This document shows positions 4,331 to 14,011 of a stretch of DNA of 43,367 nucleotides, piece by piece. Source of the DNA: Oscillospiraceae bacterium. Its GTDB lineage: Bacteria > Bacillota > Clostridia > Oscillospirales > Ruminococcaceae. The notes below the pieces were generated by a model that ran no database searches, was not told the DNA's origin, and worked only from the letters and a program-made list of their open reading frames with translations. The stretch's first letter is position 1. The number at the start of each line of letters is the position of its first letter. Location of the stretch: positions 1-43,367 of the forward strand of contig JAGAJF010000063.1 in NCBI GenBank assembly GCA_017829005.1. Direction: 5' to 3'. The translations under genes and the position numbers were made by a program.

Positions 4331-4338
4331 TCTTAATT

Positions 4339-4450
4339 TTATTCGTACATATCTCTCAGCTTTTCCGGCACCTTTTTCTCTATCCTCGAAACGTAGGAAC
4401 GGGAAATGTTAAGCTTGTCGGCTACCTCCCGCCGAGAAAGGGGCTGTTTT
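4339..4450 (-). pseudogene. 3'-end fragment of a SigK-like sigma factor (region 4.2)
   Basis: The last 31 or so codons encode RREVADKLNISRSYVSRI followed by EKKVPEKLRDMYE, almost identical to the C-terminus of the intact SigK at 12459-13142 (REVADKLNISRSYVSRI, EKKALEKLRDMYE). DNA identity over about 105 bases is roughly 85 % by eye. An open frame continues upstream to about 4800, but its sequence does not resemble sigma regions 2 or 3 and it runs through the inverted-repeat element at 4571-4731, so I do not count it as a functional sigma gene. Either the displaced 3' end of a duplicated sigK or the remains of a paralogue. It ends in its own terminator. Confidence 0.75.
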
Positions 4451-4933: not shown

Positions 4934-5122
4934 TTACTGCTTATCCGTATCAAAGGGCACCCATAAACCGGAGCTATTTTTAACCATACCGCTTTTGCGG
5001 CGGTCGATCTCTTCCATAAGCTTTTCGTCCATTTTACGCTCGGCGCTGTCTAACATATCCGATACTGCAGTAAGTTCCTCATCGGAAAGCAGATTTGCAT
5101 TTATATGCTTTATTTTAGTCAT
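4934..5122 (-). CDS. Small hypothetical protein (62 aa)
   Basis: A 62-residue soluble, charged protein (DEELTAVSDMLDSAERKMDE, then an EEIDRRKSG segment), probably helical, ending in a segment with SSGLWVPFDTDK. No family recognised. Translation is well supported: AAGGAGG sits seven bases before ATG 5122, and a TATAAT-like -10 (5200-5205, minus strand) lies 78 bases upstream with a poor -35. It stands alone between the sigma fragment and the MutS-like gene. The 4740-4930 stretch downstream holds nothing I can identify. Confidence 0.65.
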   Translation of the reverse strand: MTKIKHINANLLSDEELTAVSDMLDSAERKMDEKLMEEIDRRKSGMVKNSSGLWVPFDTDKQ

Positions 5123-5317
5123 AATTTTTCCTCCTTAATATTTGTACACTGTAGATTTTTGATGGAAAACACTTTATTTGCCAAAATGGATCATGCTCTA
5201 TTATAGCATATCTCATTATCCTATTTTATCTCCATTCTCCCAATAATAATGATAACATATCACCTGTGTAAAAATCCACCCAGCAAATCCACAGTTTATT
5301 TTCACTAAATAAACACT

Positions 5318-7051
5318 CTATTCTTGTATCATATTTCCAACCAGCATATCATAAGTAACACCATATTTCTCCGCAATATCCATAGCATAAGACATACCCT
5401 CGGGCGGAGCGATCTCGATTTTAAAAGACCTCTTGTTACCTTCATTCTTCACGATAAGAGAAGCAGCCTTTGCATTTCCGCCTGCCTTGTTCAGCTCGTC
5501 CGTATCGGCAGCAAGCTTGTGCATATGAGTGTTGTATATCGTCCTGACCTCCTTCTTTAACAGCGCACGGACAGAATCCTTTGCAATAAAGTATCCTTCC
5601 TCAAAGGACGTGGTGGAGAATGTTTCATTCATCAGAAGCAGGCTGTCTTTTGTACAGCTGCCGTAAATTTCTTTGAATCTTATACATTCCTCACCAAGCC
5701 TACCCAGATCCATCGTCTTGTCCTCATCTGCGGGGAAATGAGTAAATATGCAGTCGGCAGGACGATAAACAAACTCCGAAGCAGGTACAAATAATCCGCC
5801 CTGTGCCAGAACAAACATCAGCCCCACAGCCTGCGTCACCGTTGTTTTTCCGCCTCTGTTTGCGCCTGTCAGAATATAAATCGTATGTTCATTATCAAAA
5901 ACAAGATCGTTATATACGATGTCATTTTTATCGGGAATGCTTACTGCAAGCTTCAGATTATAAAAGCCCTTTGCATTCATAGAAATGCTGTCATTACCCG
6001 AAAGCTGCGGTTCGCAGAACGGAAAGCCCTTTTCCATACAGCTTTCCACAAACTCAGCCGTTCTGATATAATACACAAATTCGGGAATCAGCTGAGATAT
6101 GTTCACAACAGCCACATTCGCATATTTTGTAAGGGTGTCACGAAGCTTTTTCACCAGAGAATCAAGCATTTTATTCAGCACATTTTCAAGATAGAAGGTT
6201 GAATTATTTGCCCCGTCACCCTCGGGCATATTTACAATGGTTGATTTTGTCCTTATGTCCATAAGCGGGTTCTGAGCGATCTGAACAGCAGCAGTTTTCT
6301 CAAGTAAAGCAACCGCACCGTTATCCTTTTCCTGCTCGACCATATGGTAATGCATATCGCCGTTCCACTCTGAACCGCTTTGTATCTTATCCTTTGAAGA
6401 AATAGCATCGGCAAAATTGCTTATGATACCCGATTTTTTGAAGGGCTTGTCATTAACCGAAACAAGTCCCATACTTACCGCTTCAAACCGTTCATTTACA
6501 TTTATTCCGATGGTCACACTTTTTATATCCGAAGCAGTAATTTTCAAAGCGGCAATATCCTTTTTCATTTCCGCAAAGAATGCTTCATTGTACAGCATAT
6601 CAATATGCTCTTTAAATCTGATAAGCCCGTCGGAGGATATCTCTGCATCAGCAAGACATTCCCTCATTTCCTCCACGCATTTTATGTAATTGCTCAAATC
6701 TTCAAGCCTGTGCATAAGGTGCCACAGTCCAAGCTTTTCGTCCGAGTCCTTGTGCATTATCCCGAAATTGCGGATAAATTCAACCTTGTCAAACAGCTCT
6801 GTCATACGTTTTCTGAGCTCGGGCAGCCGCAGGATATCCGCAAATATTTTCTGACGGTAAAGTGCAGCAGCCCTATCGGCTGTCATCTCGGATAATACAT
6901 TCATTATCAGCCGCTGTTCCTTTGTATCGTCGGTCATCTTACGGCAGATATTATCAAGTCCAAGATCGTGACAGGCGGTTTCAGAAAGCTTTGAAATGGT
7001 TATATTTTTTTGATCGGGATAAAGTAAGCTGAATGTACCAATGTCGTTCAT
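5318..7051 (-). CDS. MutS-family ATPase without a mismatch-recognition domain
   Basis: A 577-residue protein whose C-terminal third is a MutS/MSH ATPase. It has Walker A GANRGGKTT (canonical MutS GPNMGGKS), a downstream AQGGLFVPASEF segment matching the MutS ATPase fold, a Walker B-like LLLMNETFSTTS, and an IYNTHMHKLA switch histidine. The N-terminal 370 residues are helical (core and lever type); there is no mismatch-binding domain I and no C-terminal Smr nuclease, so it is neither MutS1 nor MutS2. The Walker B aspartate is asparagine (MNE instead of MDE), which I recall from other non-canonical Firmicute MutS-like proteins. ATG 7051 is preceded by GAAAGGACGG. It is the last gene of the operon headed by the exonuclease-helicase fusion, 27 bases after the small ORF. 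Confidence 0.85.
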   Translation of the reverse strand: MNDIGTFSLLYPDQKNITISKLSETACHDLGLDNICRKMTDDTKEQRLIMNVLSEMTADRAAALYRQKIFADILRLPELRKRMTELFDKVEFIRNFGIMHKDSDEKLGLWHLMHRLEDLSNYIKCVEEMRECLADAEISSDGLIRFKEHIDMLYNEAFFAEMKKDIAALKITASDIKSVTIGINVNERFEAVSMGLVSVNDKPFKKSGIISNFADAISSKDKIQSGSEWNGDMHYHMVEQEKDNGAVALLEKTAAVQIAQNPLMDIRTKSTIVNMPEGDGANNSTFYLENVLNKMLDSLVKKLRDTLTKYANVAVVNISQLIPEFVYYIRTAEFVESCMEKGFPFCEPQLSGNDSISMNAKGFYNLKLAVSIPDKNDIVYNDLVFDNEHTIYILTGANRGGKTTVTQAVGLMFVLAQGGLFVPASEFVYRPADCIFTHFPADEDKTMDLGRLGEECIRFKEIYGSCTKDSLLLMNETFSTTSFEEGYFIAKDSVRALLKKEVRTIYNTHMHKLAADTDELNKAGGNAKAASLIVKNEGNKRSFKIEIAPPEGMSYAMDIAEKYGVTYDMLVGNMIQE

Positions 7052-7078
7052 TTTATTGACCGTCCTTTCAGAACTAAA

Positions 7079-7306
7079 TTACTTCATCTCCTCGGGAATA
7101 ACAGGCTCATAATACTCAAGCTCTGCATCATCGAGGTAATACCCTCCCCTTGGAGGCGTTATAGGCTCCTGCTTTGCAAACTCGAAATCAATTTTGTGAG
7201 TCTCCTTGTTCACAACAAGTGAAGCGTCAAACTCATTTTTATTGTTGATTGGCTTAAATTTATTTAACTGCGCCTCAGATAAATATCCGGCAAAACCACG
7301 GCACAT
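7079..7306 (-). CDS. Small ORF overlapping the helicase 3' end (75 aa)
   Basis: An open frame of 75 codons whose first 43 bases overlap the end of the helicase gene in another frame. The product is acidic, with FDASLVVNKETHKIDFEFAK and a tail TPPRGGYYLDDAELEYYEPV, and no family is recognised. No good Shine-Dalgarno precedes ATG 7306, so it is either translationally coupled to the helicase, reached by a frameshift near the helicase stop, or the former helicase C-terminus split by a mutation. Clean spacing to the following MutS-like gene (27 bases) supports it being coding. Confidence 0.5.
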   Translation of the reverse strand: MCRGFAGYLSEAQLNKFKPINNKNEFDASLVVNKETHKIDFEFAKQEPITPPRGGYYLDDAELEYYEPVIPEEMK

Positions 7307-10300
7307 TCCGTATTATCATCTTTATCTGTCCACGCAGTAATAAAGCGTATTTCTCCTTTATACGGCGTATATCCCCGTCTTGCAAGGTCTGAAAGCTGTC
7401 CCTTGAAGGCTTTGGAAAATCTAAGCACCTCACGCTGACCGTCTTTGGTAACAATATTCATACCGTTTGGCGTTACAAACAATTTCATACCGCTTCTTAG
7501 TTTAAGAATAAAATCCTTTTTATCCTTGGAAAATCCGAGGAAAACGTCCTTGTGACTTAGCTGCAGAATTATTTCATCGGGACTTGGATACTTATTTTTA
7601 TCTGTGATCTTCTCCGAACCTGCGGTTTCAAATTCATCAAATATCCCATTGTTATAATGGATGTGCAGACGGCTTTTTGCTCTTGTAAGACCCACATAAA
7701 TTTTTCTGCGTTCTTCATCATTTTCGGCACGAATATTGTCAAGCAGCATATATACGCTGTCAAATTCTCTGCCCTTTGATTTGTGGATAGTAGAAACAAA
7801 AACCGTTCCGTTTTCCGTATGATAAAAATCCTCAAGCTTTGATTCGTGAATGAATTGATCAAGGTCTGATTTGTATTTCCTTTCCACAGATTTTTCATAA
7901 TCATCAAGAAGACTGAGACACATCGGCAGAGCGGTGCTGCGTGAATATGCGCTTTCAAGTTCTGATCTTGTTTCATTCCATATTTCCTGAGATATTATGG
8001 GAGAAGTCAGCTTCATCTCAAGCATTTTCAGAAAATATCTTATCTCGGCAAGATTGTAAATATCAAAGCCGTCATTTGACTGTATGAGCTTTGCACGCTG
8101 ACCGTTTTTGATAAGCAGCCCCATCACTCGCATAGCTTCCATATTTGTTGATGTAAGCACACAAGCTGTTGAATTGCCGTCATAATTTGCAAGGAGATCA
8201 TTTACAACCGCAGTTTCGATATTTCGGCTGTTGTATCTTATGAGCTTTACCTCGCCCTCAGCTTCTGACATTGAAATAATGGGGCTGACCTTCATTCTCT
8301 CGGTGATGGTTTCCGCATAAGCATTCGCAAGGAACACAACTTCCTTGCAGCTTCGGTAATTTTCAACAAGCTCATATTTTACAGCATTTTTCTCGGTGAT
8401 AAATGAGCGGAGATACTTTGAATCGGAGCCTCTGAATCCATAAATATTCTGGTCGTCATCGCCCACAGCTATGACACGCATATCCTCGTTGCGCTCCATA
8501 AGTGCCTCGATCAGGGCATACTCGTTCCCGTCCATATCTTGTGCTTCGTCAATTACAACAACCGTTTTTGTGATGCGTCCAAGCTCCACCTCACCGTCTT
8601 TTATCATCTTTGCGGCGTCAGCCACAATGTTTTCTGCATTATCAAGATTCCCCACCCTGCCAAGAAGATCAAAGCAGTAGGAATGGAATGTTTTTATCTC
8701 AACAAAGCTTGCGGCATTTCCTATAAGCTCATACAAACGCTGCTTGAATTCGGTCACAGCCGCACGGGAAAATGTGACCATAAGCAGCTGCTCGTGCTTT
8801 ACGTCCTCAAGCAGCAGAAGGGACGCAAGCTTATGAACAAGCACCCTTGTTTTTCCGCTTCCTGGACCTGCCGTTACAACTATGTACTGCGAGGTGTTAT
8901 CATCAATTATCTCACGCTGCTTTTCCGAAAGCACAGCGAAAAGCTGTTCGTATTTCTGCGGTGTAACTGTTCGTTCAATTTCCTTTGAACGTTCTCCCTC
9001 AAAATATTTATTCAGAAATTTCTTATAGTCAAGCTGAAAATAATCATTTACAAACTGCAGCGCAGCATTATAATCCCTTACCATCATATTGGCATATTCG
9101 CCAACAATATGTATCTGCTGTATCTTCTGGCAATAGAAATCATTAAGCTGCTTGTAATCGTCCTTTTTATACTTTATCTTGTTGTCAAGCTCAAGACGGG
9201 TTATTTCCATACCGCTGTAAATAACGAGAAATCCGCCTTCCAGCTTCATCGAATCTATCTTCGCAAGATAAAGCAGAGCTTCTTCGATATCCTGATCGGA
9301 GACCTTGACAACACGGCTTTTTTCATAAGCATTTTTAAGCTCCAATATTGAATACTGAACGAGAATTTCCTCTTTGTCTGTCTTTTCCGCAGCACTTCTG
9401 TCAAAAAGGAAGCTTACAATAAATTTTGCGATATTTACGCAGCTGTTTCTTTTGCTGCAAAATGTTTCAAGCTTCACCTTCGGAACAATACTCACACGAT
9501 CAAGTGCTGCATCGGTGTGCTTTTCAATGTAATTTCTTATGGTCCAGTAATAGAAAACAGTTTTGATATTATTGACCGTTGCACCTTTTATCCCGCTGTT
9601 CTGAGCCTTTTCATTAAGCTCTTTCAGATAGAAGCTGCTGCCGTCCTCCTCAAGATTTTCAAGCAAAAATTTTTCAAGCTCAACGAACCTATTAAGAACT
9701 GCAAGAGACCTGTTTTTGTTCTCATTTTTCCTGATATATGCGGTCATATCCTTGCTGTCGGCAAGCAGCCCTTCTTCACGAAGAAGGTTTATTACACGAA
9801 TAACATCTGCTTTTGGAATACCCAGCCTGTCCGCAATATAATCAACTCTTGATTCGGCTTCGTCATTTCCCGCTTTTGCAATACTTTTGCTTGATATGAG
9901 GGAACTAATTATCCGCTTGGCGTGTATCTTGTATGAATCGCTGAATTTATCGGAACGGTCTATCATAACAGACGCCGTTGCCATATCGGGAACTGTAATG
10001 CCGCTCGCAAAGCACATAGGTACGTTTTTTCCTCTTGAAATATACCCCGCATTCTCAAGTGCAAGAACGGCAGTTTTCACCCTTGTTTCAATATCCTCCA
10101 CAGTATCGTCCCAGCCTGCCTGACGTGCTATTTCAAGGGGTGAACGACAGAGAGAGGGCCTTGTTTTGGTAAGGTCTTTTATTGCTTTCCATATCTGCTG
10201 TATCTCGCTGATACTAAGTTTGGTTTGATTGAGTAGAATAAAATGCTTGTCAAGGTCGCTGTCATTGAAAAGCACATAGCACTCCGCCTGTAAAGACTGA

Positions 10301-12060
10301 TCCCGTCCTGCTCTGCCCGCCTCCTGAACATAATTCTCCAGCGAATCGGAAATATCATAATGGATAACAAGCTTGACATTTGACTTGTCAACACCCATAC
10401 CAAAAGCAGATGTGGCAACGATTATCTGCACCTCATCATTGATGAAGGCTTCCTGATTTTCCTGCTTTTCTGTGCTGTCCATTTTTCCGTTGAAGGGACG
10501 AGCCTTAAAGCCGTCTACACACAGCTTTTCAGCAAGCATACGAGTTCTCTTTGTACGTGAAACATAAACAATTGTGGGACAGTTTTTCTGCTCAATAAGG
10601 TCTCTCATGGCAGAGTATTTTTCCTCGTCCGTTTCCTTGTACAAAACCTCATATCTCAGGTTTGTCCTTGCCGCAGAGGTCGCAAAAAGCTCAAGGTCAA
10701 GGTCCAGCTTTTTCTTGAAATAATCTCTGATATCGCTTATTACCTTCTGCTTTGCGGTTGCGGTAAAGCAGGATACGGGGATAGGGTCTTTCAAATGCTT
10801 TTTCTCCTGCAGCTCACGGATAAAATCTCCGATATAAAGATAATCCACACGAAAATCCTGCCCCCACGCAGAAAAACAGTGTGCCTCGTCAATTACAAAA
10901 CGTGCGATGTTCCTTGACATAAAAAGTCTTTCGATAGTTCGTGACCGAAGTGATTCGGGAGAAATATAGATTATTGACGCAAGACCGCTTTCCACACGTT
11001 CAAAGCTTTCCGCACGCTCAATGGGACTGAGCAGTCCGTTGATAGTTACAGCGTCTGCTATGCCCTTCTTTTCCAGATTATCCACCTGGTCTTTCATAAG
11101 CGACTGGAGAGGTGAAATGACTACAGTAAGCCCTCTCGATGCTTCTCCCGCCATAAGTGCGGGGAGCTGAAAGGTTATTGATTTTCCTCCGCCGGTTGGA
11201 AATACCGCAAGCAGAGATCTATTATTTACCGCTGCCCGAACTGCCTTCTCCTGCAGCGGCTCGTCATTATATTTTCTGAAATCATCATACCCGAAAATGC
11301 TCTTGAGCTTTTTATGTATATCAAGTCCGTTTCTGCAATATTCGCAGCCGTCGGAGCAGGGAGTATTTCTGAGCAGCCGCATTACATTATCTACTACGGG
11401 ATAATTTATATGCACCCATCTCGGAATGACCGAATGAACATCTTCCGCTGTAATTAGCGCAAGGCAGTATGCAAGCTCTATAGGAAAATTTTTTATGATA
11501 CTCCCAATATCACAGTTACTGCAAATTTTACCGGTAAATTTCTTTTTTATAAGCTCCTCCGCATTGCCAAAGGGTTTCTTTTTCAGATAAACAAAAAATC
11601 CGTAAAACTCCTTCTTTTCATAAAGAAGCGAACAGAAAATATTTTTCATATCATCATCAAGAGCATTAAAAGCATTGACCTCATCATAAAAAAGCTGCAT
11701 TGCTTTTATGGAATCGTTGAGCGGATTGTTAAGCTCGTCAGTACGAAGCTTGTCATCTTTCAGCAATGCGTGATAAGGCTTATTCGGAAATAACAGGGGC
11801 GAGAGATACAGCGTATCAATAATATATTTTATTCCGGACCTATCAACCGCTTCTTCGATATATTGCAGGTCATGAGCAAGGATATTATGTCCGCAGATAA
11901 ATCTGTCACCGAAAGGGAAAATGCCTTTACGGATAAAATCGGCAAACTCCTTTTCCGATCTTGTATGAAGCTTGTCATTCTCTGCGTTGACAGCACCGAA
12001 ATCGCACACCTTACCACTTTCGGTGCTTACTTCTGTATCAATAAATACTATCCTGCTCAT
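7264..12060 (-). CDS. Exonuclease-RecQ-UvrD fusion: giant DNA helicase
   Basis: A 1598-residue multidomain protein. Residues 1-135 resemble a DnaQ/DEDD exonuclease (FIDTE near the start, CGHNILAHDL about 56-66, LNDSIKAMQLF). Residues near 235-245 hold CSDGCEYC, a possible zinc site. RecQ core: Walker A FPTGGGKS (about 287-294), DEAHCFSAWGQDFR (391-404), motif VIHYDISDS and EAGRAGRD. A second, UvrD/PcrA-type helicase follows: AGPGSGKT (about 1064-1071), VVIDEAQD (about 1168-1175), VGDDDQNIYGFRG and STIHKSKGREFD with YVGLTRAK. Start ATG 12060 is chosen because GGGGTG precedes it and the promoter (12090-12118) would make the earlier in-frame start untranscribed. By family it unwinds and probably degrades DNA in repair or foreign-DNA control. 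First gene of an operon with a MutS-like ATPase. Confidence 0.9.
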   Translation of the reverse strand: MSRIVFIDTEVSTESGKVCDFGAVNAENDKLHTRSEKEFADFIRKGIFPFGDRFICGHNILAHDLQYIEEAVDRSGIKYIIDTLYLSPLLFPNKPYHALLKDDKLRTDELNNPLNDSIKAMQLFYDEVNAFNALDDDMKNIFCSLLYEKKEFYGFFVYLKKKPFGNAEELIKKKFTGKICSNCDIGSIIKNFPIELAYCLALITAEDVHSVIPRWVHINYPVVDNVMRLLRNTPCSDGCEYCRNGLDIHKKLKSIFGYDDFRKYNDEPLQEKAVRAAVNNRSLLAVFPTGGGKSITFQLPALMAGEASRGLTVVISPLQSLMKDQVDNLEKKGIADAVTINGLLSPIERAESFERVESGLASIIYISPESLRSRTIERLFMSRNIARFVIDEAHCFSAWGQDFRVDYLYIGDFIRELQEKKHLKDPIPVSCFTATAKQKVISDIRDYFKKKLDLDLELFATSAARTNLRYEVLYKETDEEKYSAMRDLIEQKNCPTIVYVSRTKRTRMLAEKLCVDGFKARPFNGKMDSTEKQENQEAFINDEVQIIVATSAFGMGVDKSNVKLVIHYDISDSLENYVQEAGRAGRDQSLQAECYVLFNDSDLDKHFILLNQTKLSISEIQQIWKAIKDLTKTRPSLCRSPLEIARQAGWDDTVEDIETRVKTAVLALENAGYISRGKNVPMCFASGITVPDMATASVMIDRSDKFSDSYKIHAKRIISSLISSKSIAKAGNDEAESRVDYIADRLGIPKADVIRVINLLREEGLLADSKDMTAYIRKNENKNRSLAVLNRFVELEKFLLENLEEDGSSFYLKELNEKAQNSGIKGATVNNIKTVFYYWTIRNYIEKHTDAALDRVSIVPKVKLETFCSKRNSCVNIAKFIVSFLFDRSAAEKTDKEEILVQYSILELKNAYEKSRVVKVSDQDIEEALLYLAKIDSMKLEGGFLVIYSGMEITRLELDNKIKYKKDDYKQLNDFYCQKIQQIHIVGEYANMMVRDYNAALQFVNDYFQLDYKKFLNKYFEGERSKEIERTVTPQKYEQLFAVLSEKQREIIDDNTSQYIVVTAGPGSGKTRVLVHKLASLLLLEDVKHEQLLMVTFSRAAVTEFKQRLYELIGNAASFVEIKTFHSYCFDLLGRVGNLDNAENIVADAAKMIKDGEVELGRITKTVVVIDEAQDMDGNEYALIEALMERNEDMRVIAVGDDDQNIYGFRGSDSKYLRSFITEKNAVKYELVENYRSCKEVVFLANAYAETITERMKVSPIISMSEAEGEVKLIRYNSRNIETAVVNDLLANYDGNSTACVLTSTNMEAMRVMGLLIKNGQRAKLIQSNDGFDIYNLAEIRYFLKMLEMKLTSPIISQEIWNETRSELESAYSRSTALPMCLSLLDDYEKSVERKYKSDLDQFIHESKLEDFYHTENGTVFVSTIHKSKGREFDSVYMLLDNIRAENDEERRKIYVGLTRAKSRLHIHYNNGIFDEFETAGSEKITDKNKYPSPDEIILQLSHKDVFLGFSKDKKDFILKLRSGMKLFVTPNGMNIVTKDGQREVLRFSKAFKGQLSDLARRGYTPYKGEIRFITAWTDKDDNTECAVVLPDIYLRRS

Positions 12061-12089
12061 TTTTTCACCCCAATAGGTACTTTCTTTAT

Positions 12090-12118
12090 ATTGTACCATA
12101 TTTACATAAATATTTCAA
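12090..12118 (-). promoter_or_regulatory. Promoter of the exonuclease-RecQ-UvrD operon
   Basis: Minus strand TTGAAA (12113-12118), 17-base spacer, TACAAT (12090-12095), about 30 bases before ATG 12060. It fixes the start, since the upstream in-frame codon at 12099 lies inside the promoter. Confidence 0.75.
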
Positions 12119-12142
12119 CAAAAATATGAAAATCAAAGTAAA

Positions 12143-12358
12143 TTGACCCATTTATCTTCACAACGAAAAAGCTCCCTCAGAAACGATCCTGCAAAAGCTT
12201 TTTCTGAGAACAGATGCCCGCTGAGAACAAGAGGAAATATCAAAAGTTTGCTCAGAAATATGAATATCGACAGCTATGACCCGCTCAGCATTATCGAAAA
12301 CACCAAAGGGAAATGCGTTGATGACAATATGTGGATAAAGTTTCATTTTGTTCCATAG
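12143..12358 (+). pseudogene. Fragment resembling a small mobile-element-associated protein
   Basis: A 71-codon open frame whose second half reads NRCPLRTRGNIKSLLRNMNI then DSYDPLSIIENTKGKCVDDN and MWIKF. From memory this pattern (RTRxNxxxLLxxLGL..YDPLxIxxKTxGxxxDDxxWIRF) is found at the C-termini of small proteins in clostridial conjugative elements. No Shine-Dalgarno or promoter is seen and the N-terminal half is unconvincing, so I treat it as a remnant. It lies on the opposite strand between the helicase promoter and sigK. Confidence 0.4.
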
Positions 12359-12429
12359 AAAAATTATGCTATAATAATTTGGCGGCTATATGAACCGACT
12401 GTAATTTTGTATTCCTAATCGTCTAAAAA

Positions 12430-12458: not shown

Positions 12459-13142
12459 TTATTCGTACATATCTCTCAGCTTTTCCAGGGCTTTTTTCTC
12501 TATCCTCGAAACGTAGGAGCGGGAGATGTTCAGCTTGTCGGCAACTTCACGCTGGGTAAGGGGCTTCAAGCCGTAAAGTCCGTATCGATGCTGTATGACC
12601 TCCTTTTCACGCTCGTCAAGGCACTTGTCTATAAAGCCGTAAAGCTGACGGGATTTTATCATCACGTCTATCCTGTCCACAAGATTGTCGTCCTCGGCGA
12701 TTATATCCATAAGGCTCATACTGTTGCCGTCCTTATCGGTGTCCACGGGCTCGTCAAGATAGACATCTCGTGCGCTTTTCCGGGCGCTTCTGAAATACAT
12801 CAGCACCTCGTTATCAATGCACTTTGCCGCATAGGTGGCAAAGCGGGTGGATTTGGAATTGTTAAAGGAGGAAACAGCCTTGATAAGCCCGATGGTGCCT
12901 ATGGAAATAAGCTCCTCGCTGTCAACGTTCGGAGAATAGTATTTCTTCACCACGTGGGCAACAAGGCGGAGATTATGCTCAATAAGCTCACCTCGGGCGC
13001 TGTCGTCCCCCTCTGCCATTCTCTTGAATGCCTCCGCTTCCTTCTCTGCGGACAGGGGCTTCGGGAATACGGTGCTGCTGTCCATATGCAGGGCAAAGTA
13101 CAGCATATGCTCCAGAAGCCACGAGATAAGTCCGCCAAACAT
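12459..13142 (-). CDS. sigK: RNA polymerase sporulation sigma factor SigK (pro-sigma-K)
   Basis: Late mother-cell sigma factor of endospore formation. The 227-residue product aligns with B. subtilis pro-sigma-K: a hydrophobic N-terminal pro-sequence (FGGLISWLLEHMLYFALHM) before FPKPLSAEKE, region 2 with ARGELIEHNLRLVAHVVKKY, SIGTIGLIKAVSSF and RFATYAAKCIDNEVLMYFR, and region 4.2 with REVADKLNISRSYVSRIEKK. By family knowledge the pro-sequence is removed by a SpoIVFB-type protease. Start ATG 13142 has GAGG eight bases upstream; the in-frame GTG at 13151 lies within that Shine-Dalgarno. The gene is uninterrupted (no skin-like element), but a partial copy of its 3' end lies 8 kb away at 4339-4450. 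Confidence 0.93.
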   Translation of the reverse strand: MFGGLISWLLEHMLYFALHMDSSTVFPKPLSAEKEAEAFKRMAEGDDSARGELIEHNLRLVAHVVKKYYSPNVDSEELISIGTIGLIKAVSSFNNSKSTRFATYAAKCIDNEVLMYFRSARKSARDVYLDEPVDTDKDGNSMSLMDIIAEDDNLVDRIDVMIKSRQLYGFIDKCLDEREKEVIQHRYGLYGLKPLTQREVADKLNISRSYVSRIEKKALEKLRDMYE

Positions 13143-13156
13143 AAAGATCACCTCGG

Positions 13157-13201: not shown

Positions 13202-14011
13202 CTATTTTTTGTTAAAGAAGCCGTTGTCGAATATGTTTTTGCGGTCGGGTCTGTCTTTATTTATGGTGATATCACCCTCGCAGCGGACATCGCCCTGTAT
13301 TTCTGTGCATTCAATATCGCCCTCGCAGCTCTGAACATTGCCGTGTATCACAGCGCATTCGATATCTCCGCCTGCGGAAGCATTTGCACCGATATCTCCG
13401 CAATGAATATCATCTCCTGCTGTCACGCTGCCGCCTACATTGCCGCAGTTTACTCCGTCTCCTGCCGACACTCCGCCGCCTACGTTTCCGCAGTTTACCC
13501 CGTCTCCGCAGGACACTCCGCCGCCTACGTTTCCGCAGTTTACCCCGTCTCCGCAGGACACTCCGCCGCCAACATTTCCGCAGTTTACGCCGCCTCCGCA
13601 CTGAATGTTTCCGTTAACGTCACCGTCAATGGTACAGCCGCTCCATATATCCACATTAAGTTTTGGCTGCTCCGAGGGCTTGGGCATCTGCAGCTTTATC
13701 ACAAGCTTGCCGTCATATTCATTCTGCCCGAGAATTTTATTTCCCATTGCCTGAACTATTCGCAGCTTACCGTCATCGGGCAGTCCGCACTCCGAGCAAA
13801 TGACCCCTTCCCTGCCCGTAAGCAGAAAGTCAACAGTTACGCCGAAAAATTCTCCCAGCTCCGGCAGCAGCGATATATCGGGACAGGACAGCCCGTTTTC
13901 CCATTTGCTCACCGCCTGAACGCTTATTCCCATCTGCTCGGCAAGCTTTTCCTGGGATATGCCCTTTTCGGCTCTGAGCTTTCTGATGATGTCCGAGATA
14001 ACAATATTCAT
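13202..14011 (-). CDS. XRE-family regulator with a cysteine/glycine-rich 15-residue repeat domain
   Basis: The N-terminal 60 or so residues are a Cro/C1-type helix-turn-helix (GISQEKLAEQMGISVQAVSK). CSECG at 72-76 suggests half a zinc knuckle. Residues about 126-248 are seven or eight tandem 15-residue repeats of the form VNCGNVGGGVSCGDG, degenerating towards IECTEIQGDVRCEGD; such valine/isoleucine-spaced glycine-rich repeats are typical of beta-solenoid or bactofilin-like folds. It likely binds DNA as an oligomer and may sense metal or redox state through the regular cysteines (inference). ATG 14011 is preceded by GGAGG. The stop is 59 bases before sigK on the same strand, so the two may be cotranscribed. 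Confidence 0.85.
   Translation of the reverse strand: MNIVISDIIRKLRAEKGISQEKLAEQMGISVQAVSKWENGLSCPDISLLPELGEFFGVTVDFLLTGREGVICSECGLPDDGKLRIVQAMGNKILGQNEYDGKLVIKLQMPKPSEQPKLNVDIWSGCTIDGDVNGNIQCGGGVNCGNVGGGVSCGDGVNCGNVGGGVSCGDGVNCGNVGGGVSAGDGVNCGNVGGSVTAGDDIHCGDIGANASAGGDIECAVIHGNVQSCEGDIECTEIQGDVRCEGDITINKDRPDRKNIFDNGFFNKK
13268..13588 (-). repeat. 45-bp tandem repeat array within the XRE gene
   Basis: In-frame 45-bp units encode the 15-residue repeats. The first three (about 13450-13588) are nearly identical at the DNA level, indicating recent expansion or homogenisation; those towards the 3' end are diverged. A candidate for repeat-number variation. Confidence 0.8.

Follow-up and report, generated by a model that had tools for sequence, protein, structure and literature searches.

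A patchily distributed exonuclease-like/RecQ/UvrD fusion protein encoded beside sigK in an Oscillospiraceae bacterium, a candidate stand-alone defence gene

Here we describe a protein that joins an exonuclease-like domain, a RecQ helicase core and a UvrD/PcrA-type helicase core on one chain, encoded in a genome of an Oscillospiraceae bacterium within a window of 43,367 nucleotides (the whole stretch of DNA that was analysed; Table 1). Judged from sequence comparisons, its gene would be a stand-alone, horizontally moving accessory gene encoding a three-domain DNA-processing machine, most likely for defence against mobile DNA, a reading to which we give a probability of roughly one half. The patchy distribution of the gene, the signs of its transfer and the character of its neighbours favour foreign DNA over routine repair as the target. 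Each of the three domains is already known, and the triple architecture apparently has no name of its own; titles and abstract openings of open-licence papers yielded no description of it, a sample from which absence can be argued only weakly.

Architecture of the fusion protein

The open frame runs from 7264 to 12099 on the minus strand and comprises 1611 codons encoding one polypeptide (residues are numbered from the first codon of the frame). Translation likely starts at the ATG at 12060, the start chosen in the preliminary description, with GGGGTG lying five bases upstream. That description had also read the chain as combining a DnaQ-like nuclease with RecQ and UvrD helicases; the single frame and the recognition of both helicase cores by Pfam and NCBIfam bear this out, and the DnaQ-like part holds as a probable fold detected by profile-profile comparison, with doubtful catalysis and neither a Pfam nor a PDB-profile match. 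Twenty-six rows (the window and 25 relatives, some of them truncated) align nearly end to end; L059, L076 and L079, which are truncated, and the partial loci were left out of four further alignments (A1-A4). Among the matches listed (the best 25 of 67 for PADLOC, all 13 for Pfam and the best 25 of 43 for NCBIfam), no model covers the triple fusion. Apart from the fusion, the host genome encodes a RecQ protein (857-aa frame) and a further UvrD-like protein (796-aa frame).

The RecQ half has a DEAH core with an aromatic-rich loop and invariant motifs, scoring 283.2 bits with TIGR00614 against a cut-off of 219.8. Its motifs PTGGGKS, DEAHCFS, WGQDFR, TATA, GMGVDK and QEAGRAGR are fully or nearly unchanged across the 26 aligned rows. 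Behind this core, a profile of residues 640-1060 compared with PDB gave one weak match, to a metal-dependent transcriptional regulator (E 0.055). The UvrD half follows with SF1A motifs I-VI present and invariant, and both PF00580 and PF13361 score above cut-off; AGPGSGKT, DEAQDM, GDDDQNI, NYRS and TRAK are likewise fully or nearly unchanged across the 26 rows. The full PcrA/UvrD layout is not reached, with 123.3 of the 911.2 bits required by TIGR01073 and 119.1 of the 1144.45 bits required by TIGR01075. The best match to the PcrA profile breaks off at its position 95 (residue 1148), and the best match to the Rep profile sets in at its position 210 (residue 1181); the part in between, which we take to be the 1B subdomain, therefore seems much shortened or mostly absent.

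The N-terminal domain has no Pfam match, and a profile of this region compared with PDB returned no match at E<=10. A profile built from the broad family nevertheless aligned with the PolC-type exonucleases of relatives at 93.4% probability (E=2.4e-7 in a single hhalign comparison), whereas a narrower alignment reached only 5.8% in the same comparison, and two control comparisons with the middle region of the fusion gave 0.6% and 0.1%. Numbered from codon 14, residues D8, E10, H58, N59, D64, N111 and D116 are invariant in 23 rows. The domain retains DEDDh motifs I (D-x-E) and II (HN...D), whereas motif III reads N-[ND]-P-x-x-D instead of H-x4-D; all 23 rows, and likewise all 10 plasmid rows, carry Asn at the site of the catalytic His. 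This makes a DEDD fold probable and catalysis doubtful. Between this domain and the RecQ core, C180, C235, C239 and C242 (again numbered from codon 14) are invariant in 23 rows and not conserved in the Aliarcobacter, Nostoc and Scytonema rows.

Table 1. Features of the window, and genes of the recurrent neighbour family C2 in their own loci.
Feature	Position	Strand	Remarks
Partial copy of sigK 3' end	4338..4445	.	88% over 108 bp; compared with the intact gene at 12459-12565
62-aa frame	4934..5122	-	close to sigK, or to a fragment of it, in 4 of 20 genomes of the genus
MutS-domain-V ATPase, 577 aa	5318..7051	-	PF00488 E=4.2e-22; not a conserved partner
C-terminal remnant of topoisomerase III gene	7079..7237	-	75-codon frame between fusion and MutS; longer in G302
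Exonuclease-like/RecQ/UvrD fusion gene	7264..12060	-	single open frame; Pfam and NCBIfam domain matches
UvrD/PcrA-type (SF1A) helicase core, residues ~1055-1490	7630..8937	-	PF00580 E=4.9e-36; PF13361 E=1.6e-20
RecQ (SF2) helicase core, residues 263-640	10180..11313	-	TIGR01389 E 7.4e-95; TIGR00614 above cut-off
Four conserved cysteines (residues 193, 248, 252, 255)	11335..11523	-	possible zinc site before RecQ core
DEDD exonuclease-like domain (probable fold), residues 14 to about 150	11650..12060	-	hhalign; Asn at the DEDDh catalytic His position
Promoter-like site upstream of fusion	12090..12118	-	TTGAAA-17-TACAAT, TG before second hexamer; consensus match only
sigK-like sporulation sigma factor gene	12459..13151	-	chromosomal anchor of the insertion site
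C2 gene, L055	3095-3661
C2 gene, L061	6330-7331
C2 gene, L065	14764-15771
C2 gene, L069	14824-15393
C2 gene, L083	14809-15801
C2 gene, L084	9554-10648
C2 gene, L087	1802-2368

Relation to known helicases and defence systems

Like members of the RecQ family of ATP-dependent DNA helicases (TIGR00614/TIGR01389), the fusion has a complete RecQ core with DEAH box and Q-D-F-R loop, but it adds the exonuclease-like domain in front and the UvrD core behind, and the TIGR01389 match is confined to positions 3-354 of 591, the RQC/HRDC region lying beyond. The order of an exonuclease followed by RecQ on one chain is that of WRN, from which the fusion differs in its motif III pattern, in its second (SF1) motor and in being bacterial and mobile. 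With UvrD, PcrA and Rep, and with GajB of Gabija, it shares the SF1A core motifs, and PADLOC GajB models match its UvrD half; the apparently shortened 1B stretch sets it apart from UvrD, PcrA and Rep. In contrast to Gabija, no GajA-type partner recurs next to it, as judged from neighbour clusters at 55 other loci, and the adjacent gene in the window encodes a MutS protein that has no PADLOC match. A RecQ-like core is also shared with the defence helicases DpdF and PsyrT, but the fusion scores only 219.5 bits against the DpdF cut-off of 550 (NF041063), with the matches confined to the RecQ core. Assignment to Gabija, Dpd or PsyrTA was rejected, the matches listed (best 25 of 67 for PADLOC, best 25 of 43 for NCBIfam) being limited to the helicase cores.

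Distribution and horizontal transfer

In named genomes, 30 of the 33 loci returned hold true relatives (best segments 52-88% identical), mostly from Bacillota and also from Spirochaetota, Verrucomicrobiota and Gastranaerophilales. Loci L089-L091 were rejected as helicase-only matches of 19-23% identity; L051 was dropped as lying on the same contig as L062, and L053 and L054, two pieces of one gene, were counted as two loci. A survey of the order found the fusion in 5 of 295 genomes, one copy being split over two contigs and one frameshifted, and genome G077 of this survey has a 68-residue piece that is 70% identical. A phylum survey with a middle-region profile found it in 15 of 398 genomes, broken copies included. 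Full-length copies occur in eight phylum-ranked groups (Melainabacteria being counted apart from Cyanobacteriota), some of them on plasmids. The gene is patchily distributed, with a few per cent of genomes carrying it, and is not the housekeeping gene of all relatives that the preliminary description had named as the alternative to a variable distribution.

Six of the 437 matching plasmid records cover at least 80% of the fusion query. Ten plasmid copies were viewed, from Bacteroides, Phocaeicola, Aliarcobacter, Nostoc, Scytonema, Allochromatium, Croceicoccus, Sulfitobacter, Cereibacter and Paracoccus, of which six are annotated as ‘RecQ family ATP-dependent DNA helicase’. None of the 104 matching records in the phage collection covers 80% of the fusion, and viral contigs yielded no copy in a search that reached close relatives only.

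A tree pairs the copy of a Treponema (L064) with one from Clostridia (L060; support 99) and that of an Opitutales genome (L070) with another from Clostridia (L069; support 100), both against taxonomy, in a tree made by a quick method and with long branches among the plasmid rows. L070 lies on a 309-kb contig, whereas L064, one of several cross-phylum copies from metagenome bins, is on a contig of 9.8 kb and could have been misbinned. Among the 56 loci, the window included, 41 have an unbroken full-length gene, five a broken one (L055, L086, L142 in G655, L146 in G618 and L150 in G522) and ten a gene that reaches a contig end or stops no more than 60 bases short of it; for L059 and L080, two of these ten, the contig ends after the stop codon. 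The broken copy in G655 lies about 50 kb from an intact second copy. Taken as signs of cross-phylum transfer, these patterns suggest a mobile gene moving horizontally between distant bacteria.

Neighbour genes and their defence-like character

Across the 56 loci, the fusion usually stands alone. The one recurrent neighbour that we take as a real associate, family C2 (188-364 aa), occurs at seven loci and is adjacent and co-directional in all seven, overlapping the stop codon of the fusion by four bases in L065 and L069. Two members were scanned against Pfam without a match at E<=0.001 (one match had E 0.078), and C2 has no PADLOC match at E<=0.01; it is a possible optional partner of the fusion. 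The other clusters found in at least three loci are ABC-transporter, helicase and other common families lying away from the fusion. In L083 (9938-18933), the fusion, C2 and a type IV restriction enzyme (PLD/ResIII/DUF3427; PADLOC E 2.9e-235) form a close run on one strand.

At E<=1e-20, 138 proteins neighbouring the fusion match 153 PADLOC models, compared with four models for 138 control proteins. Of 369 neighbours that measure at least 150 aa and lie no more than 6 kb away, the 138 closest made up the test set, which is of mixed origin with plasmids included; the control set consisted of 138 of 232 proteins from 20 stretches in only eight fusion-bearing genomes. The scan left out 231 neighbours and 94 control proteins, and C2 genes that overlap the fusion (those of L065, L069 and L084) were excluded from the test set. 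Among the first 25 neighbour models listed are those for a type IV restriction enzyme (two members), a type II methyltransferase (MTase_II, two members), PtuA, HerA and a type I specificity subunit (one each), together with look-alikes, an adenosine-deaminase model among them. In the control, the four models matched are mad3 (eight members, compared with three among the neighbours), PsyrA, ShosA and an RtcR/PspF-type model (one each). Helicases and methylases covered by PADLOC models also occur as ordinary genes. Because models rather than proteins were counted and the control is narrow, the excess is clear in direction and uncertain in size.

Other copies of the fusion lie amid housekeeping genes, for example those for ribosomal proteins L13 and S9, adenosine deaminase, citrate synthase and other metabolic functions; such genes make up many of the neighbours and count against the defence reading. 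On an Aliarcobacter plasmid it stands next to ParA, ParB and replication genes, and on a Bacteroides plasmid within about 7 kb of ParA and SSB genes.

Proposed role and competing explanations

RecQ and UvrD families are 3'-to-5' motors. We infer both the defence role and every biochemical step from the domain content and context described above: starting from a 3' single strand, the RecQ core would open DNA that is forked or gapped; the UvrD core, as a second 3'-to-5' motor on the same chain, would hold or travel along the other arm and strip bound proteins; and the DEDD domain would grip, and perhaps trim, exposed 3' ends. Together, the three domains could dismantle the replication or recombination intermediates of incoming DNA such as phages and plasmids. 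A more specific form of this proposal, a single-gene defence system spread over many phyla in which the two motors dismantle the forks of an invader while the Asn-for-His domain senses 3' ends instead of cutting them, is tentative, at somewhat less than even odds. Defence against foreign DNA had been among the roles suggested in the preliminary description for a helicase/nuclease/MutS set; for the fusion, this role agrees with its uneven occurrence, its horizontal spread and the surplus of defence-like genes around it, but the set with MutS is largely refuted.

The fusion could instead be an accessory genome-maintenance enzyme, a WRN-like exonuclease-RecQ protein with an additional UvrD motor, that mends stalled forks or unwinds intermediates of recombination and has spread horizontally without serving in defence. 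This fits the domain order shared with WRN, two intact motors and the frequent housekeeping neighbours, but we consider it somewhat unlikely given that the gene is carried by few genomes, is broken in 5 of the 46 loci not cut by contig ends, would join a RecQ and a UvrD-like protein already present in the window's genome, lies among an excess of defence-like neighbours and has exchanged the exonuclease His for Asn throughout.

Plasmid copies near partition and replication or SSB genes, such as those of Aliarcobacter and Bacteroides, would fit plasmid upkeep, counting against the defence reading. The fusion may be cargo that aids the replication, partition or transfer of plasmids or integrated elements, for example together with topoisomerase III, two frames of which come after the 3' end of the fusion in genome G302. 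We regard this as unlikely, since no mobile-element gene recurs beside the chromosomal copies and a tblastn search of 61 loci with the topoisomerase frames, covering the 55 other fusion loci, gave a match in the window alone. Topoisomerase III as a conserved partner was rejected on its presence in the window, as a remnant, and in G302 only; the 75-aa frame of the remnant matched none of the plasmids.

A rearranging island beside sigK

Next to sigK, the window has a rearranged island that contains the fusion. About 8 kb from the intact sigK gene lies an incomplete copy of its 3' end, likely the footprint of site-specific integration. In the sister genome G307, whose sigK protein is 99% identical to that of the window, positions 5144-12424 are absent, with L103 matching the window on both sides of 223 bp; the left end of this missing 7.3-kb stretch is the flank of the 62-aa frame. 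In G305, a prophage (tyrosine integrase, S24-type repressor and Bro-N protein) starts beside sigK. G302 has a second fragment of the sigK 3' end, close to a LlaJI-type restriction pair and to the 62-aa frame, which is located between two sigK copies in the window's genome (G000) and beyond the sigK fragment in G302. The stretch beside sigK in G309 (L106) is without the fusion. Given the sigK copy, the prophage of G305, the LlaJI pair of G302 and the empty site of G307, we read the sigK region as a probable integration hotspot.

Two other observations concern the same surroundings. A 71-aa frame on the plus strand between the fusion and sigK (12143-12358) weakly resembles a stretch of a Lachnospira eligens HTH protein (39% over 51 aa) and is possibly a gene remnant. 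At 13352-13621, repeats spaced by 45 bp lie inside an HTH-domain gene (13202-14011) and encode Gly/Cys-rich repeats after the DNA-binding domain.

The layout of contig L197 of G302, whose assembly is an estimated 7% contaminated, bears on the history of the island. The contig begins with 133 bp of the 3' end of the fusion (92%), followed by the two topoisomerase III frames (matching PF01131, PF01751 and PF13342), an SNF2-type helicase and a 5'-truncated MutS fragment that is 97% identical; a search of the G302 assembly for the remainder of the fusion brought up only an ordinary RecQ. L197 2490-2672 matches window 7085-7237 at 77% of DNA positions (in opposite order, 7237-7085), and L197 2678-2739, directly after the topoisomerase stop, corresponds to window 5300-5239 on the far side of MutS. 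We read the window and L197 as probably two states of one island with MutS placed differently, which would make the fusion and MutS two cargo genes of a rearranging island. As a separate observation, a fusion 3' end followed by topoisomerase III (L197 1-2678) recalls the partnership of RecQ with topoisomerase III, its classical partner.

The MutS neighbour in the window has the Walker A sequence GANRGGKTT. Its description as lacking mismatch recognition was fair, because only domain V is recognised by Pfam and NCBIfam. This domain is shared with the MutS, MutS2 and KamC group, but the protein scores far below the NCBIfam cut-offs, with 85.3 of 300 bits for KamC, 83.3 of 480 for the mismatch-repair equivalog MutS (PRK05399, domain V only) and 63.1 of 400 for MutS2. 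The gene lies on the same strand as the fusion after a 212-bp gap that contains the topoisomerase remnant, with no terminator-like site between them on that strand; the common transcript given in the preliminary description is at most a possibility.

The co-occurrence survey proposed in the preliminary description speaks against a conserved helicase/nuclease/MutS system. A tblastn search with the MutS protein (E<=1e-3) gave no match at the 55 other fusion loci, although in ten of these the fusion gene runs up to a contig end, or nearly so, and several more have one short flank. Within the genus, 2 of 20 genomes have the fusion (G000 and G309) and 9 of 20 have MutS, G000 alone having both. The nearest relative of the fusion, L059 of G309 (88%), is on a contig of 4.7 kb that shows no neighbouring genes, so that only the lack of a MutS match elsewhere in this 85% complete genome counts. 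Ten MutS loci, four of them on contigs shorter than 5 kb, have almost no neighbours in common. That the fusion and MutS form one functional operon, as first proposed, is highly improbable, for against the shared strand, the terminator-free gap and the co-occurrence of both genes as fragments on the G302 contig stand their separate occurrence in the genus, the 55 loci without a MutS match and the location of MutS, which has the topoisomerase remnant on one side and, on the other, sequence that in G302 comes immediately after the topoisomerase gene. MutS was rejected as a partner and looks like an unrelated, chance neighbour.

Implications

The pairing in the window illustrates that a convincing-looking operon can arise through local rearrangement. 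The fusion itself places two helicase motors of different superfamilies and an exonuclease-like domain on one chain, an unusual, widespread and transferable layout. If it acts in defence, it would be a compact system of a single gene, with motors that lend themselves to separate tests; if it acts in repair, it would be a bacterial counterpart of WRN carrying an extra motor.
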